From NCBI RefSeq assembly GCF_039831995.1, contig NZ_JBDOIO010000003.1, positions 3,348,001 through 3,412,000 on the forward strand: a stretch of DNA of 64,000 bases. The letters are read 5' to 3'. A model generated the notes under the pieces. The model was not told the DNA's origin. It did not search any database and worked only from the letters and a program-made list of their open reading frames with translations. This document shows, in pieces, positions 30,015 through 40,933 of this stretch. Numbering within the stretch: the first letter of the stretch is position 1; every line of letters starts with the position of its first letter. Origin of the DNA: Paenibacillus pabuli. GTDB lineage: Bacteria > Bacillota > Bacilli > Paenibacillales > Paenibacillaceae. The translations under genes were made by a program, and so were the position numbers.

Positions 30015-32132
30015 TTACAGAGTCGATTCCAGCTTTTCCAGGAAAGGCTTGAGCTTATCCACCACATAGTGACTGCCGCCCCGGCCATTCACGCCTTCGA
30101 TAACCGCCGAGATCAGGAAGCTGGGGGATTGCGTGTCAAACACGACAACGAATCCGTTCTCCAGGCCATTTTCGCCCTTCTTCGCCTTCAGCTCAGCCGT
30201 TCCGGTCTTGGCCGCAAGCTCTCCTGAAAGCGAGTTTAATGAATGAGCCGTTCCTCCCGAACGAGACACCACCTGAACCAAAGCATCCTTGACCGTGTTC
30301 GCTGCCTCAGGGGTAATTATCACCTCGGGTTCGGAGGTTTCTTTTCCTTGAATCAGAACAGGCTTCACCATTTTTCCTTCATTAATAAAAGGAGTGAAGG
30401 ACGACGCCAGATGAATCGGCGACATCAGCATTTCTCCCTGTCCATAGGACGTGTCGGCAAGCAATACTTCGGAAGCCAAATCCAGGTTCGCTTCATTCGC
30501 ATACTGGCTCGGCTTTAAGTACAACTCATCCAGACCGAAGTTATCTCCAAAACCAAACTTCTGGATTCCTTCAATAAACCGTTTGCTGCCCATCTCCAGC
30601 GCCTCTTGGGCAAAGTAAATATTATCCGAATAGACCAGTGCATCAACCATATTTACCGGAGTTAAACTTTTCACCCGCTTGACATAATATCCGCCCCAAC
30701 TCTCATCCTTGCGCCATTGCAGACCGGAGATCTCATGGGTTTTATCCGCCGTTGTGACCTTTTCCATTAATCCCGCTGCCGCCGTAATTGCTTTGAAGGT
30801 TGAACCTGGTGCATATCGATTGGTGAATCGATTGATAAAAGGAAGCCGTTCATCTGCTGAATACGCGTCCCACTCCGCCTGAGTGAGTCCTGTGACCATT
30901 TTGTTCGGATTGTAGGCGGGTGCACTGGCCAGGGCGAGCAGGTGCCCATCGACCGGATTCATAAGCACGGCCGCTCCGGCATCTCCGTCACTCGATAACG
31001 CCTTATACAGCTCCGACTGTGTTTCCGCGCTGATGGTCAACTGCACCTTTTGTCCGTTTGCCGCGTCTTTGCGAATAAGCTCCGAGAGGACTTTGCCTGC
31101 TTCGTCCGTGATTTCGATTACGCCCCCGCGCTCGCCGCGGAGCTGCTTCTCCATGGACTGCTCCAGTCCGGCTCTTCCGATCCAATCCTCGGCATGGTAA
31201 TATCCTTCCGTATCCTTCTCCAGATCTTCCTGAGTGACCTTACGCACATAACCAATCAGATGCGCAGCCGATGCACCAAGCGGATAATAGCGGATTTCCT
31301 TGGACTGCAGCTTCACCCCACTTAATTGTTCAGGAATATTGTAATCCTCAGTTGAACCGATGGGGACAAAATACTCCGGCTTCACCCACTTTTGGGACAG
31401 GGCGTTGTTAATCACATCCTCGGACACCTTGTAATGCTTGGCGATCTGGGCAATCATCGCATCCGGGTTGTCACCCAGCTTCTCCGGCACGATGCCCCAC
31501 TCGTTCACCGTTCCCTTGGTAGCAAGAGGCAAACCGTCCCGGTCCACGATATCACCGCGTTCCGGCAAGAGTGTCCTCACCCTGACTTTGCTTCCTTTAA
31601 TCATGTCGCTCAGGATCATGGAAGGCTGCCAGTTAATCCGCCACACTTTCGTGCCGTCCTCGGTTTCCTGCCGGACAAGCTTGAGTGTCTGTGTCTCGTT
31701 TACTTCCCCAAGGAAGGTTGTTAGCTGCAAGTGATAATCCACTTCATAGTCATCCGGATTCTGATCCGATTTGCCCGTGTTCTGCTCCCCTTTGTCCTGA
31801 TTCTCTGATGCACCGCCACTTTCCGCTGTGTCCGTTACCTTGGGCTTCACTTCCGCCTTAACGGCTGAGACCTCCATTCCCGAATAGATGGCATTGTACT
31901 TCTCTACAAACTGTTCCCGGTTCATCCCGGACTCATCCAGCGACGCTGGCGTCATTAATGTATATAGCTGATCAAATTCCTGCTTCTGCAGATGCTGTAT
32001 GTATTGGTCTACGGTTGCCTCCGGTTTCGCTTCCTCTGCCTTGCTGCTTTGCATGTATAAATACGCTCCTATTCCGCCAGCAAACAGAAGGGGGAGCAAG
32101 CCATATATGATTTTTCGTTTTGATTTTTTCAT
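30015..32132 (-). CDS. Class B penicillin-binding protein (PBP3/PbpC-like, with MecA-N-type domain)
   Basis: This 705-residue transpeptidase cross-links peptidoglycan outside the membrane. It has one N-terminal helix (about 8-27), then an NTF2-like MecA_N domain (TVDQYIQHLQKQEFDQLYTL; KYNAIYSGM), a PBP dimerisation domain (LPERGDIVDRDGLPLATKG) and the transpeptidase domain. Active-site motifs are Ser444-xx-Lys447 (GSTFK), Ser502-Asp-Asn (SDN) and Lys642-Thr-Gly (KTG). The MecA_N domain is shared with B. subtilis PBP3 and with MecA of staphylococci, so low beta-lactam affinity is possible; the sequence cannot show it. ATG 32132 with AGAGGTGA is chosen over the frame start at 32183. Confidence 0.92.
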   Translation of the reverse strand: MKKSKRKIIYGLLPLLFAGGIGAYLYMQSSKAEEAKPEATVDQYIQHLQKQEFDQLYTLMTPASLDESGMNREQFVEKYNAIYSGMEVSAVKAEVKPKVTDTAESGGASENQDKGEQNTGKSDQNPDDYEVDYHLQLTTFLGEVNETQTLKLVRQETEDGTKVWRINWQPSMILSDMIKGSKVRVRTLLPERGDIVDRDGLPLATKGTVNEWGIVPEKLGDNPDAMIAQIAKHYKVSEDVINNALSQKWVKPEYFVPIGSTEDYNIPEQLSGVKLQSKEIRYYPLGASAAHLIGYVRKVTQEDLEKDTEGYYHAEDWIGRAGLEQSMEKQLRGERGGVIEITDEAGKVLSELIRKDAANGQKVQLTISAETQSELYKALSSDGDAGAAVLMNPVDGHLLALASAPAYNPNKMVTGLTQAEWDAYSADERLPFINRFTNRYAPGSTFKAITAAAGLMEKVTTADKTHEISGLQWRKDESWGGYYVKRVKSLTPVNMVDALVYSDNIYFAQEALEMGSKRFIEGIQKFGFGDNFGLDELYLKPSQYANEANLDLASEVLLADTSYGQGEMLMSPIHLASSFTPFINEGKMVKPVLIQGKETSEPEVIITPEAANTVKDALVQVVSRSGGTAHSLNSLSGELAAKTGTAELKAKKGENGLENGFVVVFDTQSPSFLISAVIEGVNGRGGSHYVVDKLKPFLEKLESTL

Positions 32133-32280
32133 AGTCAGATCACCTCTACTATATACTATAGATTTCCAGAGCCCCTGAAACAATGGAACAAATCTGACGA
32201 ATTTATCATTAAAAATAGCCGAATGCTCACATAATATGTTTAAATAAGGAGAGTGAAACTACAGGCAAAGGAGCCCGATG

Positions 32281-32685
32281 ATGGAAATCAGCTATTTTTT
32301 ACTCCCCAAAGACGAAGTGGCTTATATCAAGTCCTCCGCTTCCATGAAGGAAGCACTCGAACAGCTTGAAGCACAGCATTATACCGCCATTCCCGTGATT
32401 GATCAGGACGGAAAATATGTTGCGACCCTGTCCGAAGGCGATTTGTTATGGAAAATGCGGAGCACCCCCGGACTGACATTTGATAACATGGATCAGGTTC
32501 AGGTGCATGAAATCAGCAACCGGGTATATAATGAATGCGTCTTCATCCAAGCAGAAATGGAGGATATGCTGACGCTGGCAGCGGACCAGAATTTCGTGCC
32601 TGTCGTGGACGTGGACCGCGTCTTTCTTGGCATTATCCGGCGCAAGGATATTATTGAATATTACACGCGCAATATTTCTGATTAA
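32281..32685 (+). CDS. CBS-domain protein
   Basis: This 134-residue cytoplasmic protein is made of two CBS motifs (ALEQLEAQHYTAIPVIDQDG, KYVATLSEGDLLWKM; then MLTLAADQNFVPVVDVDRVF and GIIRRKDIIEYY). These domains usually bind adenine nucleotides. No enzyme or channel domain is attached. The ATG at 32278 is possible, but GGAG is better spaced for 32281. It diverges from the PBP gene. The product ends just before a strong terminator. Confidence 0.85.
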   Translation: MEISYFLLPKDEVAYIKSSASMKEALEQLEAQHYTAIPVIDQDGKYVATLSEGDLLWKMRSTPGLTFDNMDQVQVHEISNRVYNECVFIQAEMEDMLTLAADQNFVPVVDVDRVFLGIIRRKDIIEYYTRNISD

Positions 32686-33044
32686 AGTAATGAATGAATG
32701 CCACCTGCAGTTTTCCCTGCAGACAGATGTAAAAAAGGCGAGCACCTCTGCTCGCTTTTTTTGTTGCTCCAAATCTTCCTATTTCCTCCTCACAATCTCT
32801 TCTGTCACTTCGTTCTCAAGCTATTTTAGTACCCGAATACAACAAACATATTGCGCATTATTCGACAAATAACTACAATAATTATCACCATACGACATAT
32901 TCAAGGAGATAAATCGCGTTATTTTAACATTACACTGCGAAGGTCCTAGTGTTTTTTTCAGAATTTGTTCAGAATGCTTTAGTACAATAAGCACGTCCTT
33001 TTCAGTTCAGCTCCATTTCAGAAACATCAGAGAGAGGTATTCCA
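32686..33044. other. Leader region of the glycosyltransferase operon, with repeated TTCAG
   Basis: After the CBS terminator (32732-32763) lies AT-rich DNA without a gene. TTCAG occurs five times between 32957 and 33021 (32957, 32968, 33001, 33006, 33017), the first two in TTCAGAAT spaced 11 bases apart. A convincing -35/-10 pair was not found. There is no GEMM-type c-di-GMP aptamer. Confidence 0.4.
32732..32763 (+). terminator. Terminator after CBS gene
   Basis: GCGAGCA and TGCTCGC pair around CCTC, followed by TTTTTTTG. Confidence 0.9.
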
Positions 33045-35321
33045 TTGAATTATTTAAGTACACGCAACAAGATTCTGGTCACAGCTACGGTGATCATGTC
33101 TTGTATTTACGTCATTTGGCGTACGTTCTTCACCATTCCTTTCGGCCATGGCCCTCTCGCCGTGACCGCTGGTCTTGCCCTCCTTATTGTCGAACTCATC
33201 GGCATGTTCGAACTGGCCGTCCACTTTTACAATATGACCCGGCTTGAATACCCTGAGCTTCCCGTAGTAGATGAGGCGTTATATCCGGATGTGGATGTCT
33301 TTATTGCGACCTACAATGAACCCACTTCCCTTCTCTTCAAAACGATTAACGGCTGCCTCAATATGGATTATCCGGACCGTTCCAAAGTACATATCCATCT
33401 GTGTGACGATTCCAATCGTCCCGAGATGCGGGAACTTGCCGCCCATCTGGGCATCAACTACCTGACCCGGACCGAGCACAAACACGCCAAGGCTGGTAAT
33501 CTCAACAACGCCATGAAACATACTTCTTCCCCCCTGATCGTCACCTTTGATGCCGACATGATTCCGAAGCATGATTTTCTGACGTCCTGTGTGCCGTATT
33601 TTCTGACAGGAGAAAAGATCGGTTTCGTGCAGACACCGCAAAGCTTCTACAATCCCGATCAATTCCAGTACAATCTGTACTCCGAGAACCGGATTCCGAA
33701 TGAGCAGGATTATTTCTACCGTGACGTGCAGGTCGGACGCAACAAATCCAATTCCGTAATCTACGGCGGAACCAATACGGTGCTCTCCAGACAGGCATTG
33801 GAAGACGTAGGCGGCTTCTATACTGGTTCCATTACGGAGGATTTTGCAACAGGCATCGAGATGCAGAGCAAAGGGTACCGCTGCTTCGCAACCAATAAGG
33901 TACTGGCATCCGGGCTTGCCCCGGGCGATCTAAAGAGCCTGATCAAGCAGCGTCAGCGCTGGGCACGCGGTTGTATCCAGACAGGCAAGAAGATGAATCT
34001 GCTGTTCAAGAAAGGTTTGAGTTTTGCCCAAAAATTAAATTATATCTCTTCCATAACCTACTGGTATTCCGGGCTGAAGAGATTGCTGTATATCATGTCG
34101 CCGATTCTGTTTGCCGTCTTCGGCATTCTTGTTGTGAAGTGCACAATACTTGAAATTTTAATATTTTGGCTGCCGATGTATCTCCTGACCAATACCTGTC
34201 TGCGCATGCTGTCGGGCAATATTCGAACAACCAAATGGACCAATGTCTATGAAACCATCCTGTTCCCGTCCCTGCTGCCTGCTGTCATTCTGGAGACGCT
34301 TGGCATTACGATGAACAAATTCGTCGTTACCCGCAAGGACGGTGCGCAAAATGATGATCGGAACTATCAGATAAAACAAATGATTCCCCATCTGATTCTG
34401 GCTGTCCTATCCATCATCGGTATCGTGAACTGCATTCACTGGACGTTCAGTCAGGGTACCATCGGTTTCCTGGTCGTGCTGTACTGGTTGCTGATCAACT
34501 TCTATAACATCATGATGTCCATCTTCTTCCTGGCCGGACGTAAAGTGTTCCGAAACCACGAGCGCTCACTCGCTTCTGTGGACTGCACGATTACAACCGA
34601 AGGCGAGACGATCTCCTGCTTGACTCATGATCTCTCGGAAGGCGGAATATCCGTGATGCTCGATATGCCGAAATATATCCCGAGTGATATGGAGGTCGGC
34701 ATCAAGCTGGTTAACGATCGATATGCAAGTGAATTTACAGGCAAGGTCGCTCACGTTGCATCCATCGGCGATCGCTGGAAATATGCTTTTATCGTAAAGA
34801 AAATTACAGAAGAGCAGCAGCGGCAGCTGCTGCACATAATCTATGACCGCGAGCCTACGCTTCCTCAGAAGCTGGACAAGGATATCAGTACATTCGAGGA
34901 CATTCGCCTGAACTTTGTGCGCCGGGGGCAGAGTGAGTTTATGTCCAACCGGAAGCTGGCACGTATTGCAGTTAACCGTACAGTGGACACGCCAACGCAT
35001 GGAGCCGTTACCCTGCTAGATTTCAACTATGAATATGTTCTGCTGGAGACATCACGCCAAGAATTGAGCTATGAGATCCATCTGCCCATTAGCGACGACC
35101 TGACTCTGGAGTGTGTATGGGTACAATCCCTACGGAACAAACGAGGTAACCTGTACCGGGTGACCAACATCCAGGACATCGCCCGTAATCATCAGATGCA
35201 TAACCTTGAGGCTTTGTTTACGCAGTGGAATAGGGAGCAACGGCAAACAGGTCGGCCAAATGTCATATCCAAAGACAAAAGCGTCTCGAATGATGAACTC
35301 AACGAGATGGCTTATTTATAG
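33045..35321 (+). CDS. Cellulose-synthase-like GT2 (BcsA/CcsA-type) with PilZ domain
   Basis: This 758-residue inner-membrane enzyme should polymerise and export a beta-glycan. About seven or eight helices flank a family 2 glycosyltransferase. Its catalytic motifs are DDSNRPE, D169-A-D171 (FDAD), Thr264-Glu-Asp266 (TED) and Gln302-Arg-Gln-Arg305-Trp306 (QxxRW), so it is processive. A PilZ domain follows: RxxxR at 499-503 (RKVFR) and DxSxxG at 528-533 (DLSEGG), an intact c-di-GMP site. About 110 more residues after it carry another RxxxR (636-640) without DxSxxG. The start is TTG 33045 with AGAGAGG eight bases upstream. It leads a four-gene operon. The product may be cellulose or another beta-glucan. 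Confidence 0.92.
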   Translation: MNYLSTRNKILVTATVIMSCIYVIWRTFFTIPFGHGPLAVTAGLALLIVELIGMFELAVHFYNMTRLEYPELPVVDEALYPDVDVFIATYNEPTSLLFKTINGCLNMDYPDRSKVHIHLCDDSNRPEMRELAAHLGINYLTRTEHKHAKAGNLNNAMKHTSSPLIVTFDADMIPKHDFLTSCVPYFLTGEKIGFVQTPQSFYNPDQFQYNLYSENRIPNEQDYFYRDVQVGRNKSNSVIYGGTNTVLSRQALEDVGGFYTGSITEDFATGIEMQSKGYRCFATNKVLASGLAPGDLKSLIKQRQRWARGCIQTGKKMNLLFKKGLSFAQKLNYISSITYWYSGLKRLLYIMSPILFAVFGILVVKCTILEILIFWLPMYLLTNTCLRMLSGNIRTTKWTNVYETILFPSLLPAVILETLGITMNKFVVTRKDGAQNDDRNYQIKQMIPHLILAVLSIIGIVNCIHWTFSQGTIGFLVVLYWLLINFYNIMMSIFFLAGRKVFRNHERSLASVDCTITTEGETISCLTHDLSEGGISVMLDMPKYIPSDMEVGIKLVNDRYASEFTGKVAHVASIGDRWKYAFIVKKITEEQQRQLLHIIYDREPTLPQKLDKDISTFEDIRLNFVRRGQSEFMSNRKLARIAVNRTVDTPTHGAVTLLDFNYEYVLLETSRQELSYEIHLPISDDLTLECVWVQSLRNKRGNLYRVTNIQDIARNHQMHNLEALFTQWNREQRQTGRPNVISKDKSVSNDELNEMAYL

Positions 35322-35339
35322 AGCGGAGGCAAGGTACAC

Positions 35340-36497
35340 ATGATCAAGAAGTGGAAACAACTTATACTTGCCGCCGTTTTCGCTGCATTATGGAGCCTGC
35401 TTCCCGTCCAGGCTGTTCAAGCAGAACAGCTTAAGCTGAGCGGAAGTACGCTTCGTGAATGGAATAACGGGACCGAAGTAGATACCCAAATGGATAAGAA
35501 CGGCAGTATACAGATTCAAACCTCTACCGAGGGACTCAAAAAAGGCTATTATTCCGCTTACATCTATGAACTGCGGAACAGGGACTGGTCAAGCTACGGT
35601 GCGTTGACCTTCTCCATTCGTAATGAATCGGAGCAGACATTACCCTTCAATGTCGTTATCATCCGGGCAGATCAGAGCTCCCTTAACGTAGCGGATAACC
35701 GAAATGTCATCGTCGTTCCGAAGACAACCAAGGAAGCCACGTTGGTTCACCCTACAGCAGGTCTGATTAAACTGAAGCCTGGCTTTGTCGGACAGATCCG
35801 CATCCCTTTCTCCAGTCTGATGGTTCAGGACAAGGCCAAGACGGCAGGCCTGGTCAAGCTGGGCAAAATCACCGGCTGGGGCATTACGACGACCACCACC
35901 GAGAATGCCAAGCTAAACTTACGGGTCGGAAACATCAAGCCGGTATCCCGGAAGCAAGCCGCTGCTGAGAATGAGCTAACCACGCTGCAGATCACGGGAG
36001 AAGAACGAATGGTGAAGCCGGAGGCTGGTGAATCGATTGCACAATATGAAGTTCACTCTTCTTCCAGCAAAGGAATTTCAAAGACATCCTTTCAACTGGA
36101 CAGTCCTGTGCAAGGGGCATCCATTACACCGGATGGCCTGCTTACACTCCAGACTTCCGTTCAACCTAAAAGTCTCACCATACGCGCACTCGTGAACGGA
36201 AAATGGAACCTTACCTATACCGTTATGATGGACCAATCGACAGCCATGAATGTACAGGAGAAGGATGGGACGAAGCGCGCCATTCCGTCTCCTGATCAGG
36301 TTACAAAGGTGGTAAACCCCACCGATCCGCTGATGAAACCGTGGATGGAGTGGCTCATCCGCATCATCCTGTCGGCAGCCGGCATCCTTACGCTTGCAGC
36401 CTACGGATTCTGGCGTAAAGGCAAAAACACAGCTCGAGCCCAAAAAAGGCGTTCCCGCCGCGAGCAGCGCCGGGCAAGGCGTCCATTCAGCATGTAG
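35340..36497 (+). CDS. Secreted, C-terminally membrane-anchored partner of the glycan synthase
   Basis: This 385-residue protein has a signal peptide (cleavage near VQAEQ, about 29), a beta-sandwich (about 30-200, SLKKGYYSAYIYELRNRDWS; GALTFSIRNE; GFVGQIRIPFSSL) that resembles carbohydrate-binding domains, a second beta region, then one C-terminal helix (about 338-360) and a strongly basic cytoplasmic tail (RRSRREQRRARR). The plan of secreted sugar-binding domains and C-terminal anchor is like BcsB, but no sequence similarity is claimed. It follows the GT2 by 18 bases with GCGGAGG. Its likely role is guiding the growing chain or docking the acyltransferase. Confidence 0.72.
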   Translation: MIKKWKQLILAAVFAALWSLLPVQAVQAEQLKLSGSTLREWNNGTEVDTQMDKNGSIQIQTSTEGLKKGYYSAYIYELRNRDWSSYGALTFSIRNESEQTLPFNVVIIRADQSSLNVADNRNVIVVPKTTKEATLVHPTAGLIKLKPGFVGQIRIPFSSLMVQDKAKTAGLVKLGKITGWGITTTTTENAKLNLRVGNIKPVSRKQAAAENELTTLQITGEERMVKPEAGESIAQYEVHSSSSKGISKTSFQLDSPVQGASITPDGLLTLQTSVQPKSLTIRALVNGKWNLTYTVMMDQSTAMNVQEKDGTKRAIPSPDQVTKVVNPTDPLMKPWMEWLIRIILSAAGILTLAAYGFWRKGKNTARAQKRRSRREQRRARRPFSM

Positions 36498-36601
36498 CTG
36501 AACGAAGCAGACTATGCCATATCCCTGGATGCGGCATAGTCTGTCTCTACTTTGCGTGAATGCACGCTGTATTCTTATATGATCCTCAAGGAGGAAAGGC
36601 A

Positions 36602-38023
36602 GTGCTCTTTTCCAGTGTCGTTTTTTTATTTTATTTTCTGCCGCTTGTACTGGGGCTTTATTACGTACTGAGATTCTCGGTCACGATCAAAAATATGCTG
36701 CTGCTTGTCGCGAGTTTATTCTTCTATGCTTGGGGTGAACCCTGGTTCGTCCTGATCATGCTGGCCTCTATCTGTTCCAACTATGTCTTCGCTCTGCTCG
36801 TGGACAAGTTCAGGGAAAGGCGCAATGCAGCCTACACCATTATTACTATGATGCTGATCGTCAACCTCGGCATGCTGTTTGTGTTCAAATACCTGGTTTT
36901 TGCGCTGCGTATTGTGAATGAAAATACGAGCTTCGGACTCAGCATTCCGAACATTGCACTGCCGCTGGGTATCTCCTTCTTCACCTTCCACGGTATCTCT
37001 TACGTCATTGATGTCTATCGTGGACACGGCGCTGTACAGAAAAATCTCTTTTACGTCGCATTGTACATCTCCTTCTTCCCTCAGCTTGTTGCCGGACCGA
37101 TTCTGCGGTATAACACGATTGCGGATCAGATGGTAAACCGGAAAGAGAGCTGGGACAAGTTCGCGGTAGGCTGCTGCAGGTTCATTGTGGGCTTGGGTAA
37201 AAAGGTGCTGTTATCGAACAGCATGGCTATTGTCGCCGATCACATCTTCAGCATGGGAGGCACATCTGAAGTGTCCTCCAGTTTGGCGTGGCTTGGGGCG
37301 ATTGCCTATACGCTGCAGATATATTTCGACTTCTCCGGGTATTCCGACATGGCCATTGGTCTCGCATTGATGTTCGGCTTCAAGTTCGAGGAGAACTTCC
37401 GATATCCGTACATCTCCAGATCCATCACTGAATTCTGGCGCCGCTGGCATATCTCGCTCGGTACCTGGTTCAAGGAATATGTATACTTCCCGCTGGGCGG
37501 TTCCCGCGTTACCAATAAGGACAAAATGATTCGTAACCTGCTGATCGTCTGGGGACTTACCGGCGTATGGCATGGTGCGGAGTGGACATTCGTCGTGTGG
37601 GGGTTAATTAACTTCGCGTTCATCGCGCTGGAGAAAATCTTCAGCTTTGACAAAGGAACACGCTTCATCCCGCTGCGGCATCTCTACGCCATGTTTATCG
37701 TCGTGATTGGCTGGGTTATCTTCCGGTCGCCGGATCTGCTGCAGGCAGGTCATTATCTGGGCAATATGTTTGGACTGTACGGCAATGGGTTCTGGAGTGA
37801 TACAACAGGGATGTTCCTCAAGGAATATGCATTCTTCTTCATTCTGGGTATCCTGTTCTGTATGCCGATTGCCACTCGGATGAACAAACTCATGGTTGAT
37901 GGCGCCCGTTTCCGCAAACCGCTGGAGCTGGTCTATCCGCTGACGATCATTCTATTATTCCTGGTCTGCGTATCGTATCTGGTCAAGGGTACATATAATC
38001 CATTTATCTATTTTAATTTCTGA
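36602..38023 (+). CDS. MBOAT-family membrane O-acyltransferase (AlgI/WssH/CcsH-like)
   Basis: This 473-residue protein with about ten helices moves acyl groups from the cytoplasm to polysaccharide outside. It has the AlgI/DltB patterns: LFSSVVFLFYFLPLVLGLYY, FFYAWGEPWFVLIML, PLGISFFTFHGISYVIDVYRG, SFFPQLVAGPILRY, FWRRWHISLGTWFKEYVYFP and the catalytic His324 in GVWHGAEWTFVVWG. The start is GTG 36602 with AAGGAGG six bases upstream; the frame opens at 36560. It follows the anchored partner and precedes the DHHW gene by 16 bases, as in alginate and acetylated-cellulose operons. Acetyl is the likely group. Confidence 0.92.
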   Translation: MLFSSVVFLFYFLPLVLGLYYVLRFSVTIKNMLLLVASLFFYAWGEPWFVLIMLASICSNYVFALLVDKFRERRNAAYTIITMMLIVNLGMLFVFKYLVFALRIVNENTSFGLSIPNIALPLGISFFTFHGISYVIDVYRGHGAVQKNLFYVALYISFFPQLVAGPILRYNTIADQMVNRKESWDKFAVGCCRFIVGLGKKVLLSNSMAIVADHIFSMGGTSEVSSSLAWLGAIAYTLQIYFDFSGYSDMAIGLALMFGFKFEENFRYPYISRSITEFWRRWHISLGTWFKEYVYFPLGGSRVTNKDKMIRNLLIVWGLTGVWHGAEWTFVVWGLINFAFIALEKIFSFDKGTRFIPLRHLYAMFIVVIGWVIFRSPDLLQAGHYLGNMFGLYGNGFWSDTTGMFLKEYAFFFILGILFCMPIATRMNKLMVDGARFRKPLELVYPLTIILLFLVCVSYLVKGTYNPFIYFNF

Positions 38024-38039
38024 GAGAAGGCACACAAGC

Positions 38040-39251
38040 ATGCATAACTTTCTTGCCAAAAAGAGAATCACCGCTTTCCTCTTCATACTTGTGCTGGTGA
38101 CGCTCTCTGTTCTGAATATCATTCAGTCCTTCGGCCCGATCAAACAAACACTGGCCTCCGGAGACTACGATATCTCTGAAACCAAAGGACTGATCCACCA
38201 GCTGGATGCGGACATCAATGATCATGTCTTCGAGAAGTTTGGATTCGTGGAAGCCTACGGATACTTGCAATCCCTGATGTGGAAAAACGAGGAGAACAAT
38301 TTCGAGGTTGTCAGAGACATGGAGGGCAAGCTGCACTATACCTATTTTGCCACCGGGCCAACGTACACAAAGGATCTGTCCGACCGGGTTGCTGCGCTTG
38401 AAGCGCATTTGGATCCACAAACGAAGCTGACCTATGTCATGACGCCGGACAAATACGTGCGTGGCTATACTACGTTCCCGGAAGGCATTCCGTACAACTA
38501 TAATAATGAAACTGCTGATGGCTTCCTAGCCAATCTGGAACAGGACGGCATTGATACCCTTGATCTGCGGGAGGGATTGCTGGAGAGCGGCATTCCGCCG
38601 GAGGATCTGTTCTTTACAACCGACCATCACTGGAAAATCAGGACGGCGTTCTGGGCCTTCGGCCAGCTCGTGAATCATATGGACGGCATGTACACGAAGT
38701 CGCTGGACCCGGATCATTATTTCACAGACATTCATAACTACAATGTGATTCCATACGAAGACATCTTTATCGGATCGCAGGGCCGCAAGGCTGGTAAATA
38801 CTTCGCGGGTGCAGATGACTTCGACCTGATCTATCCGAAGTTCAAGACAAACTATTCCTTCTACTTCAAGACAGGCGAGACCGAAGCTGCACTTAATGGA
38901 CGCTTCGAGGATGCGCTGCTCACCACCTACCCGCTCAATGTGCAGGGAGCCACATATGATCTGACTGCGGACAAGTATTTCACGTATCTGTACGGGAATC
39001 AGGGGATTGTTCATGTGGTGAACAAAGATAATCCGAATGGTCTGAAGGTCATGTTCATCAAGGACTCCCTCGCCGTGCCGATGATCTCTTTCCTGTCCAC
39101 GGTTGTGTCCGAAATCTACGTCATCGATCCGAGGTATTACACCGAGGACATTATGGATTTTGCCAGCAAGACGGAACTGGATCATGTCTTGGTATCGATC
39201 TCGCCACAGGATCTGGTGGAAGAATTCTTCCCTTACGGGGCGAACAATTAA
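38040..39251 (+). CDS. DHHW-family AlgX/AlgJ-like O-acetylation partner
   Basis: This 403-residue protein has one N-terminal helix (about 9-27) and an extracytoplasmic SGNH-like fold. The defining TTDHHWK motif is at 194-199 (Asp195, His196, His197, Trp198). GLKVMFIKDSLAVPMISFLS carries the late catalytic Ser. These proteins accept acetyl from an MBOAT partner and place it on the polymer. It lacks a signal-peptide cleavage site, so it stays anchored. It is the last gene of the operon; a terminator follows. Confidence 0.9.
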   Translation: MHNFLAKKRITAFLFILVLVTLSVLNIIQSFGPIKQTLASGDYDISETKGLIHQLDADINDHVFEKFGFVEAYGYLQSLMWKNEENNFEVVRDMEGKLHYTYFATGPTYTKDLSDRVAALEAHLDPQTKLTYVMTPDKYVRGYTTFPEGIPYNYNNETADGFLANLEQDGIDTLDLREGLLESGIPPEDLFFTTDHHWKIRTAFWAFGQLVNHMDGMYTKSLDPDHYFTDIHNYNVIPYEDIFIGSQGRKAGKYFAGADDFDLIYPKFKTNYSFYFKTGETEAALNGRFEDALLTTYPLNVQGATYDLTADKYFTYLYGNQGIVHVVNKDNPNGLKVMFIKDSLAVPMISFLSTVVSEIYVIDPRYYTEDIMDFASKTELDHVLVSISPQDLVEEFFPYGANN

Positions 39252-39278
39252 GTCAGTGAACGATCATACGATCAAGTA

Positions 39279-39336
39279 AAAAAAGGGTAACCCAAGGCCA
39301 ATCATGATTTGGCAGACAGGGTACCCTTTTCTTTTT
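39279..39336 (+). terminator. Terminator ending the glycan synthase/acylation operon
   Basis: AAAAGGGTA and TACCCTTTT pair around a loop that has its own GGCCAATC...GATTTGGC stem, followed by CTTTTTG. Confidence 0.88.
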
Positions 39337-39350
39337 GTGATTCAGTAGAA

Positions 39351-39797
39351 TCAGTTTTGTTCACGCTTTATCCTCTGTTCCTTGTAATAGTGCAGCACGT
39401 CAGGCGGGCAGCCTTGAAATGCACGTTCCTTGCCGTATTCATAGGCCTGATGCAAATAAGAATACGCCTCGTCATGCTGTTCCAGTCTCATGCAGACGGT
39501 CCCCAGCTCAATGAGCGGACCCGTATTAATATCCGATCCTCGCGTTTGCAGCGATAATTCCGCCCAGGGCTTCGCCAGCGCATACTGTCCCAAGTCCATA
39601 TGTGCATTCGCATGACAGGATGCAATCCAGCTCGCTATTTCCCATTCGGTCTTTGGCTCAGGCAGCATCCCCCAGGCCTGATCATAATAGATCAGTGCCT
39701 GTTCATGCTGCTGCGTGTCGTCCAGCACATTGCCTGCTTCAACGGTTTCAATAATCTGTCTCTCCAGTTCAGGATGTTCCGATGTCAATTCCTTCAT
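39351..39797 (-). CDS. TPR-like repeat protein
   Basis: This 148-residue helical protein contains TPR-like units: NVLDDTQQHEQALIYYDQAW, LGQYALAKPWAELSL and RLEQHDEAYSYLHQAYEYGKE. It has no catalytic motif or signal peptide. ATG 39797 has GGAGGAG upstream and overlaps the TGA of the SMI1-like gene by four bases. It should be co-translated with it. Confidence 0.72.
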   Translation of the reverse strand: MKELTSEHPELERQIIETVEAGNVLDDTQQHEQALIYYDQAWGMLPEPKTEWEIASWIASCHANAHMDLGQYALAKPWAELSLQTRGSDINTGPLIELGTVCMRLEQHDEAYSYLHQAYEYGKERAFQGCPPDVLHYYKEQRIKREQN

Positions 39798-40243
39798 ATC
39801 GCCTTCTCCTCCTTCAGTTCGAAGTACCACTCCAGAAATGTATTAAAATCAGGCCACTCGGGGCGGCTCTCCCCGTTCAAGAAAAGTTCAATCGACTCAC
39901 CAAGCTCTACAAGCACCACTTCACCGGTTTGCCGATTATAGAAAAATCCTCCCTCCCCTTCAAAGCTATCCAGCGGTATGTAAGCTTCAGGCAATCCGAG
40001 GGTGAGCTGGGCCACCGTCATGTCTTCCAAATACACAGTATTCTCCATCACCCAGCAGATCTGATAGATCTCCTGATGTCTGCTATAGAAGGTCGGGCCA
40101 TCATCTGCATACAGATAAAACTGCGCAAAATCAGACTGAAGATCAATATTCAGCTTCTTCAGTGCTTCCTCATACTCCTTCGGTACATTTTCATGCCACC
40201 ACCCCTTGCCTTGGCAAAACTCAATAACTTTACTAGATAACAT
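39794..40243 (-). CDS. SMI1/KNR4-like protein
   Basis: This 149-residue protein resembles the SMI1/KNR4 fold: KKLNIDLQSDFAQFYLYADDG, DSFEGEGGFFYNRQTGEVVLVEL and DFNTFLEWYFEL. This fold is common in bacterial toxin-immunity proteins, but no cognate toxin is seen. ATG 40243 has AGGAGG six bases upstream. It overlaps the TPR gene and follows another unknown gene by about 30 bases. Confidence 0.75.
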   Translation of the reverse strand: MLSSKVIEFCQGKGWWHENVPKEYEEALKKLNIDLQSDFAQFYLYADDGPTFYSRHQEIYQICWVMENTVYLEDMTVAQLTLGLPEAYIPLDSFEGEGGFFYNRQTGEVVLVELGESIELFLNGESRPEWPDFNTFLEWYFELKEEKAI

Positions 40244-40273
40244 ATTCATCCTCCTAATCAACTGACGGCGTAA

Positions 40274-40933
40274 TTATGATCGATTCAGTGCAGAACGGTA
40301 GGGTGCATAAGTACTCATTACCCATTCATGGAACAATTGGTGAGCGCTGCTGGCATCGGGGGCATGGAAGAGATAGGTTCCTTCCACCTCCCGGCGGCTC
40401 AATTTGGAATCAACTAAGTCTCTGTCGTCTTCTTCATTCAACATAATTTGGTACGTCCCATCCTCCTCGCGGAATCCGAGGGCGTGCACATTCGTTTCTT
40501 GTTTATAATATCCGAGCTGCAGTATTGCTGGTTGTTCGTTAGCCAATATACCGGCGAAGGCCGGGTTCGGAAAGTGCTCATCGAAATGGGATTCATCCGG
40601 GACAATTCCCTGATAAAAGCCGTTAACCACTTCGCCGAGAAGGCTCACGATATGATGGGCATTAACGTAAGGGAAATGTTCAATTTCGTAGACATCGGAG
40701 TCCGAGTGATGCCACTGCAGGTACTCCATGATTTTGGAATAGGTGAAGCTGACGGCCCCCGCTGCTTCCCGATTCAGCGGTTGGTCCGCAGTGAGACGGG
40801 TCAGTTCCATAATACTATTCACATATCTCCAGAATAACAACTGATCAAAACGCGCTTCCTCATGAAGCATGTATAAAAAGGTATTCTCTTCCGCCCGCGC
40901 GTTGCGCATGAGCTCCTGGAGCGAATGTTCCAT
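40274..40933 (-). CDS. Protein of unknown function, about 219 residues
   Basis: From ATG 40933 (CGGAGG about ten bases upstream) the protein is 219 residues. It is acidic, mainly helical, with conserved-looking HEEARFDQLLFWRYVNSIMEL and HFPYVNAHHIVSLLGEVVNG and a C-terminal alpha/beta part (LGYYKQETNVHALGFREEDG). No signal peptide, membrane segment or enzyme motif is seen. It is the first of three minus-strand genes with short gaps and is probably in one operon with the SMI1-like and TPR genes. I do not recognise it. Confidence 0.65.
   Translation of the reverse strand: MEHSLQELMRNARAEENTFLYMLHEEARFDQLLFWRYVNSIMELTRLTADQPLNREAAGAVSFTYSKIMEYLQWHHSDSDVYEIEHFPYVNAHHIVSLLGEVVNGFYQGIVPDESHFDEHFPNPAFAGILANEQPAILQLGYYKQETNVHALGFREEDGTYQIMLNEEDDRDLVDSKLSRREVEGTYLFHAPDASSAHQLFHEWVMSTYAPYRSALNRS

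Follow-up and report, generated by a model that had tools for sequence, protein, structure and literature searches.

The 64,000-nucleotide stretch of the Paenibacillus pabuli genome analysed here (assembly GCF_039831995.1, contig NZ_JBDOIO010000003.1, positions 3,348,001 to 3,412,000; hereafter the window) carries, between positions 33045 and 39251, four plus-strand genes that we identify with good confidence as a ccsABHI operon, namely a clostridial cellulose synthase type locus without ccsZ, held on a cassette most likely derived from Clostridia and encoding a machine for an O-acetylated beta-1,4-glucan. This explanation rests on homology, gene order, motifs, predicted folds and the presence or absence of the cassette, and from these we infer the enzymatic activities, the sugar and its linkage, acetyl as the acyl group, control by cyclic diguanylate (c-di-GMP) and the direction of transfer. 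An earlier, sequence-only reading of the window had proposed a glucan synthase operon of the c-di-GMP type that includes an O-acylation pair and can be compared with the clostridial ccs loci, and domains, motifs and gene order show that it was right; the four genes with intact catalytic motifs that it described are likewise confirmed by open reading frames (ORFs), Pfam domains and motif letters. The genes and the two C-terminal parts of the synthase are as follows.

33045..35321, plus strand: ccsA, predicted BcsA-like processive GT2 synthase with PilZ, 758 amino acids, TTG start behind GAGAGAGG
34551..34844, plus strand: PilZ domain of CcsA (amino acids 503-600), Pfam PF07238, with RNHER and DLSEGG
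34911..35249, plus strand: unnamed conserved C-terminal domain of CcsA (amino acids ~623-735), NRKLAR ... DFNYEY, beta-rich
35340..36497, plus strand: ccsB, the second gene, 385 amino acids
36602..38023, plus strand: ccsH, predicted MBOAT O-acyltransferase, 473 amino acids, Pfam MBOAT 1.1e-35
38040..39251, plus strand: ccsI, predicted N-anchored extracellular DHHW/SGNH acetyltransferase, 403 amino acids, with TDHHW and KDS

The ccsH gene starts at the GTG at 36602 behind AAGGAGG, and not at 36560; the resulting length of 473 residues matches that of its relatives. The genes had been called tightly spaced, which holds for the gaps between ccsA and ccsB and between ccsH and ccsI (18 and 16 base pairs, bp), but not for the 104 bp that separate ccsB from ccsH.

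The ccsA product matches GT2 and PilZ in Pfam (PilZ E 9.8e-12). Its residues 1-629 resemble BcsA, and the key residues of the synthase, the gating loop and the PilZ domain are conserved; the motifs DD, DxD, TED, QRQRW, the gating-loop FVVTRK and DLSEGG were all found. The RxxxR motif is best read as R503-NHE-R507, in agreement with the RTSER printed for RiGT2, a PilZ-bearing Romboutsia relative, in the available part of PMC10374906, and the second motif is D529-L-S-E-G-G534. R503, R507, S531 and G534 are invariant in 15/15 aligned synthases. Judged by its residues, the PilZ domain of CcsA carries the c-di-GMP effector motifs RxxxR and (D/N)xSxxG. Membership of the synthase in PgaC/IcaA was rejected, its scores being far under the curated cut-offs. 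Outside the part that aligns with BcsA lies the unnamed C-terminal domain, which recurs in 64 of 92 aligned synthases (the alignment took 92 of 96 rows, with L049, L063, L117 and L141 left out) and gives no Pfam match in the window CcsA. Its best match in a profile search of the PDB was 2kjg, at only 0.049, and the structure searches hardly probed it, because the BcsA part fills the match lists. A second PilZ domain at this end was rejected despite the RxxxR pattern in NRKLAR...DFNYEY and the beta-rich model: hhalign against PilZ1 gave a probability of 1.6% (E 0.031, 20 columns), and ten C-terminal synthase fragments gave no PilZ match at E<=10.

The second gene had been put forward as a candidate new BcsB analogue, a claim that does not stand, since the gene is a member of the Clostridioides difficile CD630_25440 family, which has one solved member, and such a component was named CcsB in 2020. 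Its product consists of a signal or transmembrane helix, a CBM11-like jelly roll, a second beta domain, a C-terminal transmembrane helix and a basic tail longer than that of most aligned clostridial CcsB rows. While Pfam returns only a sub-threshold CBM11 match (E 0.0017), the profile search matches CD630_25440 (PDB 8SMQ) at E = 1.1e-27 over chain residues 8-173 of 173, that is, nearly the whole solved domain, and the structure searches find 8SMQ as well; the best structural matches besides it are CtCBM11 entries, of which 6r31 and 6r3m were solved with a mixed-linkage tetrasaccharide. By sequence and predicted fold, the second gene thus encodes a CcsB-family protein, CBM11-like with helices at both ends, beside CcsA. 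Scott et al. named CcsB in the clostridial ccsZABHI locus and call it non-homologous to BcsB (PMC7710045). The paper on CD630_25440, a target (T1176) of the structure prediction assessment CASP15, attributes no function to it and mentions neither CcsB nor cellulose (PMC10792529); family, a length of 358 amino acids and the operon table in the available part of PMC5377389 suggest CD630_25440 to be the C. difficile ccsB. No BcsB was present among the sequence matches of the second gene (Pfam, NCBIfam, profile search), nor among the 50 best matches listed in either structure search, where absence is no proof.

The third and fourth genes appear to form an acylation pair. The ccsI product matches ALGX (7.5e-9) and DHHW (2.1e-5, 24.4 bits, just under the cut-off of 25) in Pfam, and its nearest named SGNH structure is PatB1 of Bacillus cereus (9.5e-5). 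WHG in CcsH and TDHHW and KDS in CcsI are all present; TDHHW occurs in 15/15 CcsI rows from loci with the order ccsA-ccsB-ccsH-ccsI (A-B-H-I) and KDS in 14/15, L094 having RDS. CcsH ends in FIYFNF, and an F-x-Y-x-x-F end is shared by 32 of 38 homologous MBOATs of the fetched loci. In PatA, the Tyr of the C-terminal hexapeptide is acetylated and the acetyl passed to an SGNH partner, and CcsHI is listed as another pair of this kind, according to the available part of PMC12148441; from its position and letters FIYFNF looks like such an acyl-Tyr shuttle motif, and the catalytic Ser of CcsI would be S343. The shuttle elements, i.e. the WHG His, the C-terminal Tyr hexapeptide and the SGNH Ser, His and Asp, are seen here as letters only. 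DltB membership of CcsH was rejected, its score being far under the curated cut-off. Among the relatives, two tandem ccsI-like genes follow ccsH in Clostridium brassicae (L066:12934-15651). Five loci of the CotH-H-I-MBL-A type (MBL, metallo-beta-lactamase; L060, L075, L079, L080, L097) have MBOATs without the C-terminal F-x-Y-x-x-F; the DHHW motif is altered to TDSRW and TDRRM in L060 and L097, the two rows checked, and WHG is lost in L060. In these five loci the chemistry of the pair may have been lost or changed, judging from the motifs. An MBL-fold-like gene is found in all five, but also in the motif-intact L072-L074.

In the proposed mechanism, CcsA would polymerise uridine diphosphate (UDP)-glucose into a beta-glucan and push the chain through its own membrane channel, with c-di-GMP on the PilZ domain opening the gating loop. 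CcsB, held by its C-terminal helix, would grip the emerging chain at the outer face of the membrane via the CBM11-like domain. CcsH would take acetyl from cytoplasmic acetyl-coenzyme A and load it onto the Tyr of FIYFNF, and the Ser-His-Asp triad of CcsI would transfer it onto the glucan, so that a secreted, partly O-acetylated beta-1,4-glucan of the biofilm matrix would result. The four-gene machine probably builds an acetylated, cellulose-like slime polymer, and its product is most likely an O-acetylated beta-1,4-glucan. According to the available part of PMC5377389, C. difficile, with a corresponding operon, secretes a glucose polymer carrying about 0.5 acetate per glucose, and C. acetobutylicum has a similar operon and an acetylated polymer; because of these, an O-acetylated beta-glucan is the best-supported product here. 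The C. difficile polymer also overturns the suggestion that such a glucan was undescribed in Gram-positives, which stands as far as Paenibacillus is concerned: no report of a ccs locus in this genus was found among the literature matches listed, most subscription journals lying outside the coverage.

Conservation of the gene order in relatives, a further expectation of the sequence-only reading, was borne out by a survey and extends to a second genus of Paenibacillaceae. Neighbouring genes were called greedily by ORF length, and some may have been missed. The scan of named genomes, in which the best 80 of at least 580 confirmed synthase relatives were taken, gave the A-B-H-I order in ten loci (L064-L071, L082, L094), nine of them from Clostridia; the hosts are Paenibacillus xylanexedens, Clostridium hydrogeniformans, C. 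brassicae, C. acidisoli, Scatolibacter, Lachnotalea, a Roseburia metagenome-assembled genome, C. simiarum and two Lachnospiraceae. In L094 the match to CcsB is weak (2e-7) and the synthase falls elsewhere in the tree. Word-based protein searches (30, at least 31 and at least 15 proteins) missed most clostridial CcsB, which were reached by synteny. Of 75 genomes examined in the window's genus, 17, its own included, have a synthase ortholog at least 83% identical, and all 17 loci show CBS-A-B-H within the stretches covered, with H and I whole in three (L026-L028). Across 295 genomes of the family, a synthase at least 71% identical occurs in 13; twelve belong to the window's genus, and the remaining one (L048), from a different genus, has the A-B-H-I order. 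The 398 genomes of the phylum gave eight synthase matches at E<=1e-80, among them the window's own and three of the same genus, the other four being without A-B-H-I. The earlier remark that a cellulase is lacking also holds, as PF00150 (GH5) matches at seven places in the genome and nowhere in the window; the locus is therefore classed as a ccsZ-less ccsABHI variant and not as ccsZABHI. Among the ten named A-B-H-I loci, a GH5-like gene lies within the stretch covered in five (L066, L068, L069, L071, L094) and not in the other five (L064, L065, L067, L070, L082); it stands between B and H in C. brassicae and at the head in C. simiarum, where GH5-A-B-H-I is the full ccsZABHI order.

The flanking genes and the signals around and within the operon are listed below.

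32278..32685, plus strand: CBS-domain gene, CbpB/DarB-like, left neighbour outside the cassette, Pfam CBS 1.2e-14
32737..32763, plus strand: hairpin terminator after the CBS gene, GGCGAGCACCTCTGCTCGC plus T-run, palindromic (the terminator scan listed the minus strand)
32957..32988, plus strand: putative promoter element before ccsA, direct repeat TTCAGAA-N4-TTCAGAA, 8 nucleotides, TACAAT (-10 like)
36508..36543, plus strand: intercistronic hairpin between ccsB and ccsH, -24.5 kcal/mol
39282..39330, plus strand: bidirectional terminator behind ccsI, right boundary of the operon
39351..39830, minus strand: TPR-like gene, right neighbour outside the cassette, named from its repeats, with no family call

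The ccsABHI operon is a clean presence/absence cassette between the CBS and TPR genes. Six genomes were examined at this site, picked because the same-genus scan showed no such synthase in them, and the cassette is absent between the same neighbours in all four that were informative. In G002 and G051 the CBS and TPR-like genes are adjacent, with a gap of about 120 bp against 6.7 kb in the window, and in G034 and G053 a homologue of the next gene (about 39807-40243 in the window) stands directly beside the CBS gene; G013 and G025, with only a 44% identical CBS homologue, were uninformative. A GGGTAC...GGGTACC hairpin between the two genes in the cassette-less G002 and G051 resembles the terminator behind ccsI, and the 39282-39330 terminator is probably ancestral to the CBS/TPR pair. 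In the synthase trees, the Paenibacillaceae cassettes form one clade (100/99) inside clostridial class I, and a constraint that groups 14 rows of clostridial classes I and II to the exclusion of Paenibacillaceae was rejected by the approximately unbiased (AU) test (p-AU 0.008); L061, among the class II rows, lacks both H and I in the stretch covered. The quick tree came with a long-branch warning for L141, L063, L049, L094, L120 and L062. The clean cassette and the nesting of its synthase among clostridial ones make horizontal gain likely, and the simplest account is such a gain from Clostridia with later loss or spread inside the genus.

With regard to regulation, the 32737-32763 terminator separates the operon from the upstream CBS gene. 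The repeat TTCAGAA-N4-TTCAGAA, followed after 8 nucleotides by TANNAT, precedes ccsA at 16 of the 17 orthologous loci in Paenibacillus, L018 having a changed copy (the upstream alignment took 14 of the 17, L015-L017 being left out). A copy with two mismatches precedes ccsA in L048, where 0.14 matches were expected in the locus and two were found, the second elsewhere. In its exact form the repeat is unique in the 6.95-Mb genome, with nine one-mismatch rows and none in the backward control. Repeats at an 11-bp spacing that abut a -10 box are typical of OmpR/PhoB-type activators. A sigma-70 consensus scan over 31500-40500 placed no site at 32957-32988 and found six sites against 12.0 in shuffled sequence, and no c-di-GMP riboswitch or other Rfam element was found at 32000-40000 at E<=1; the genome has 16 GGDEF places. 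A terminator had been claimed only after the fourth gene, which is not quite right, given the strong hairpin in the gap between ccsB and ccsH, though this one is not followed by a clean T-run. In 13/13 loci of the window's subclade (its own and L003-L014) the gap holds a hairpin, at -18 to -32 kcal/mol and with stem letters that differ, while L015-L018 and L048 show weak pairings only (-5 to -13 kcal/mol). As a guess, it could be an attenuator between A-B and H-I.

Several points weigh against this explanation. The score of CcsA for TIGR03030, the cellulose synthase equivalog, is far under the cut-off, and, per Scott et al., ccs genes always occur together, yet ccsZ is missing from the window locus (PMC7710045). 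RiGT2, in the available part of PMC10374906, makes a mixed-linkage glucan, its activity is not raised by c-di-GMP, and its PilZ domain did not bind c-di-GMP in vitro despite the motif. The sister relation of the Paenibacillaceae cassettes to C. hydrogeniformans and C. brassicae had a support of 97 in the quick tree (Shimodaira-Hasegawa-like approximate likelihood ratio test) and only 85/85 in the careful one, and the choice of clade for the AU test was made with knowledge of the quick tree. The guanine-plus-cytosine (GC) content of the cassette equals that of its surroundings and gives no sign of recent transfer, so any transfer is old. The glucan of RiGT2 further speaks for an alternative in which the same machine makes an O-acetylated (1,3;1,4)-mixed-linkage beta-glucan, selected or guided by CcsB via its CBM11-like domain, which we consider unlikely though not negligible. 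The CtCBM11 structures with bound tetrasaccharide fit this alternative, as does CcsZ of C. difficile, which is five-fold more active on mixed-linkage beta-glucan than on carboxymethylcellulose; CcsZ is, however, inactive on lichenin (PMC7710045), the jelly-roll fold is common to many carbohydrate-binding modules that bind cellulose, mannan and other glycans, and the authors of RiGT2 set it in a clade apart from that of CcsA (PMC10374906, available part). A wider proposal is somewhat more doubtful still, namely that the ccs machine, here and in Clostridia, makes this mixed-linkage product, with CcsB as a chain-specific exit subunit replacing BcsB in Gram-positives, and that the unnamed RxxxR/FNY domain at the C-terminus of CcsA adds a further regulatory input to that of PilZ.

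The operon could also make a different beta-glycan, or a polymer bound to the wall instead of secreted, with the acylation pair modifying that product. MBOAT/SGNH pairs are found to serve alginate, peptidoglycan and secondary wall polymers in the available part of PMC12148441, the sole NCBIfam MBOAT match of CcsH is DltB (139.7 bits, under the cut-off of 375), and the structure nearest to CcsI is the PatB1 mentioned above; we regard this as distinctly improbable. That the four genes are no functional unit, being a chance neighbourhood or a decaying relic, is scarcely credible: the spread within the genus is patchy, but frames and motifs are intact, the gene order is kept across class borders and the promoter repeat is conserved.

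The ccsABHI operon can be set beside several known systems. It shares with ccsZABHI of C. difficile, C. vincentii and others (PMC7710045) the order A-B-H-I, the GT2-PilZ synthase, the anchored CBM11-like CcsB, the MBOAT and the DHHW protein, and differs in lacking the GH5 gene ccsZ and in its host, a Paenibacillus (Bacilli). The Gram-negative Bcs/Wss machinery for acetylated cellulose (WssH/WssI of P. fluorescens) likewise combines a synthase, an MBOAT and an SGNH acetyltransferase; no BcsB, BcsC or BcsZ was recognised by Pfam or NCBIfam among the four window genes, as had been claimed for BcsB and BcsC, and the clostridial acylation pair has an origin other than that of Bcs/Wss (PMC7710045). 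Other classes of synthase locus among the relatives are CotH-H-I-(MBL)-A-(GH5), GtrA/GT2-A with a protein of ~617 amino acids, and synthases of ~1,060 amino acids without PilZ motifs. In the second class, a related PilZ synthase stands beside the ~617-residue protein, which has no Pfam match, usually after a GtrA/GT2 gene (L022-L025, L053, L098, L100, L101, L103, L139 and others). This module is widespread in Paenibacillus, also occurs in Streptococcus vestibularis and was not found in the window's genome; unlike the window locus, it has no CcsB, MBOAT or DHHW gene seen beside it, and it forms a separate branch (24 rows, support 99). It is probably the Streptococcus module reported in the available part of PMC10333796, citing Liu et al. 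2020.

Further observations concern more distant synthases. Those of class II (L060:1721-3150 and similar loci) lie beside VTC-domain, DUF4956 and CotH-kinase genes, and CotH and DUF4956 are also named in the available part of a paper on Gram-positive Pel (PMC7112168). Nineteen synthases of ~970-1,240 amino acids with a long N-terminal part (L107, L111, L112, L116, L118, L119, L121, L125-L127, L129-L131, L133-L135, L137, L138, L143), from Lachnospiraceae-like, Fibrobacter and Treponema genomes, have the PilZ RxxxR and DxSxxG positions replaced (e.g., by TEH), and c-di-GMP control therefore seems lost or changed in them. In L049-L052, from family genus g17, a CcsA-related GT2 synthase has as neighbours a protein with a Wzz domain (by a family call made for L052 only) and a gene whose N-terminus resembles uridine triphosphate (UTP)-glucose pyrophosphorylase. 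In the window itself, a penicillin-binding protein gene with MecA_N, dimerisation and transpeptidase domains (30015-32183, minus strand) adjoins the left CBS gene, whose product scores 85.9 bits for CbpB in NCBIfam, under the cut-off of 125.

The kind of system described here is already known, and what is new lies in the class of the host, the site of the cassette, the repeat at the promoter and the unnamed domain of CcsA. Outside Clostridia, Scott et al. detected no homologues of CcsB (PMC7710045). With the whole A-B-H-I set now present in Bacilli (Paenibacillus), a system described so far in Clostridia gains a new host, and gene order in a range of hosts links the solved but unexplained 8SMQ family to a glucan synthase. 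Gene deletion and work on the polymer may be simpler in Paenibacillus than in strict anaerobes, and presence and absence of the cassette form a natural pair within one genus. The Paenibacillus locus would allow a direct test of cellulose versus mixed-linkage glucan for this class of synthase.

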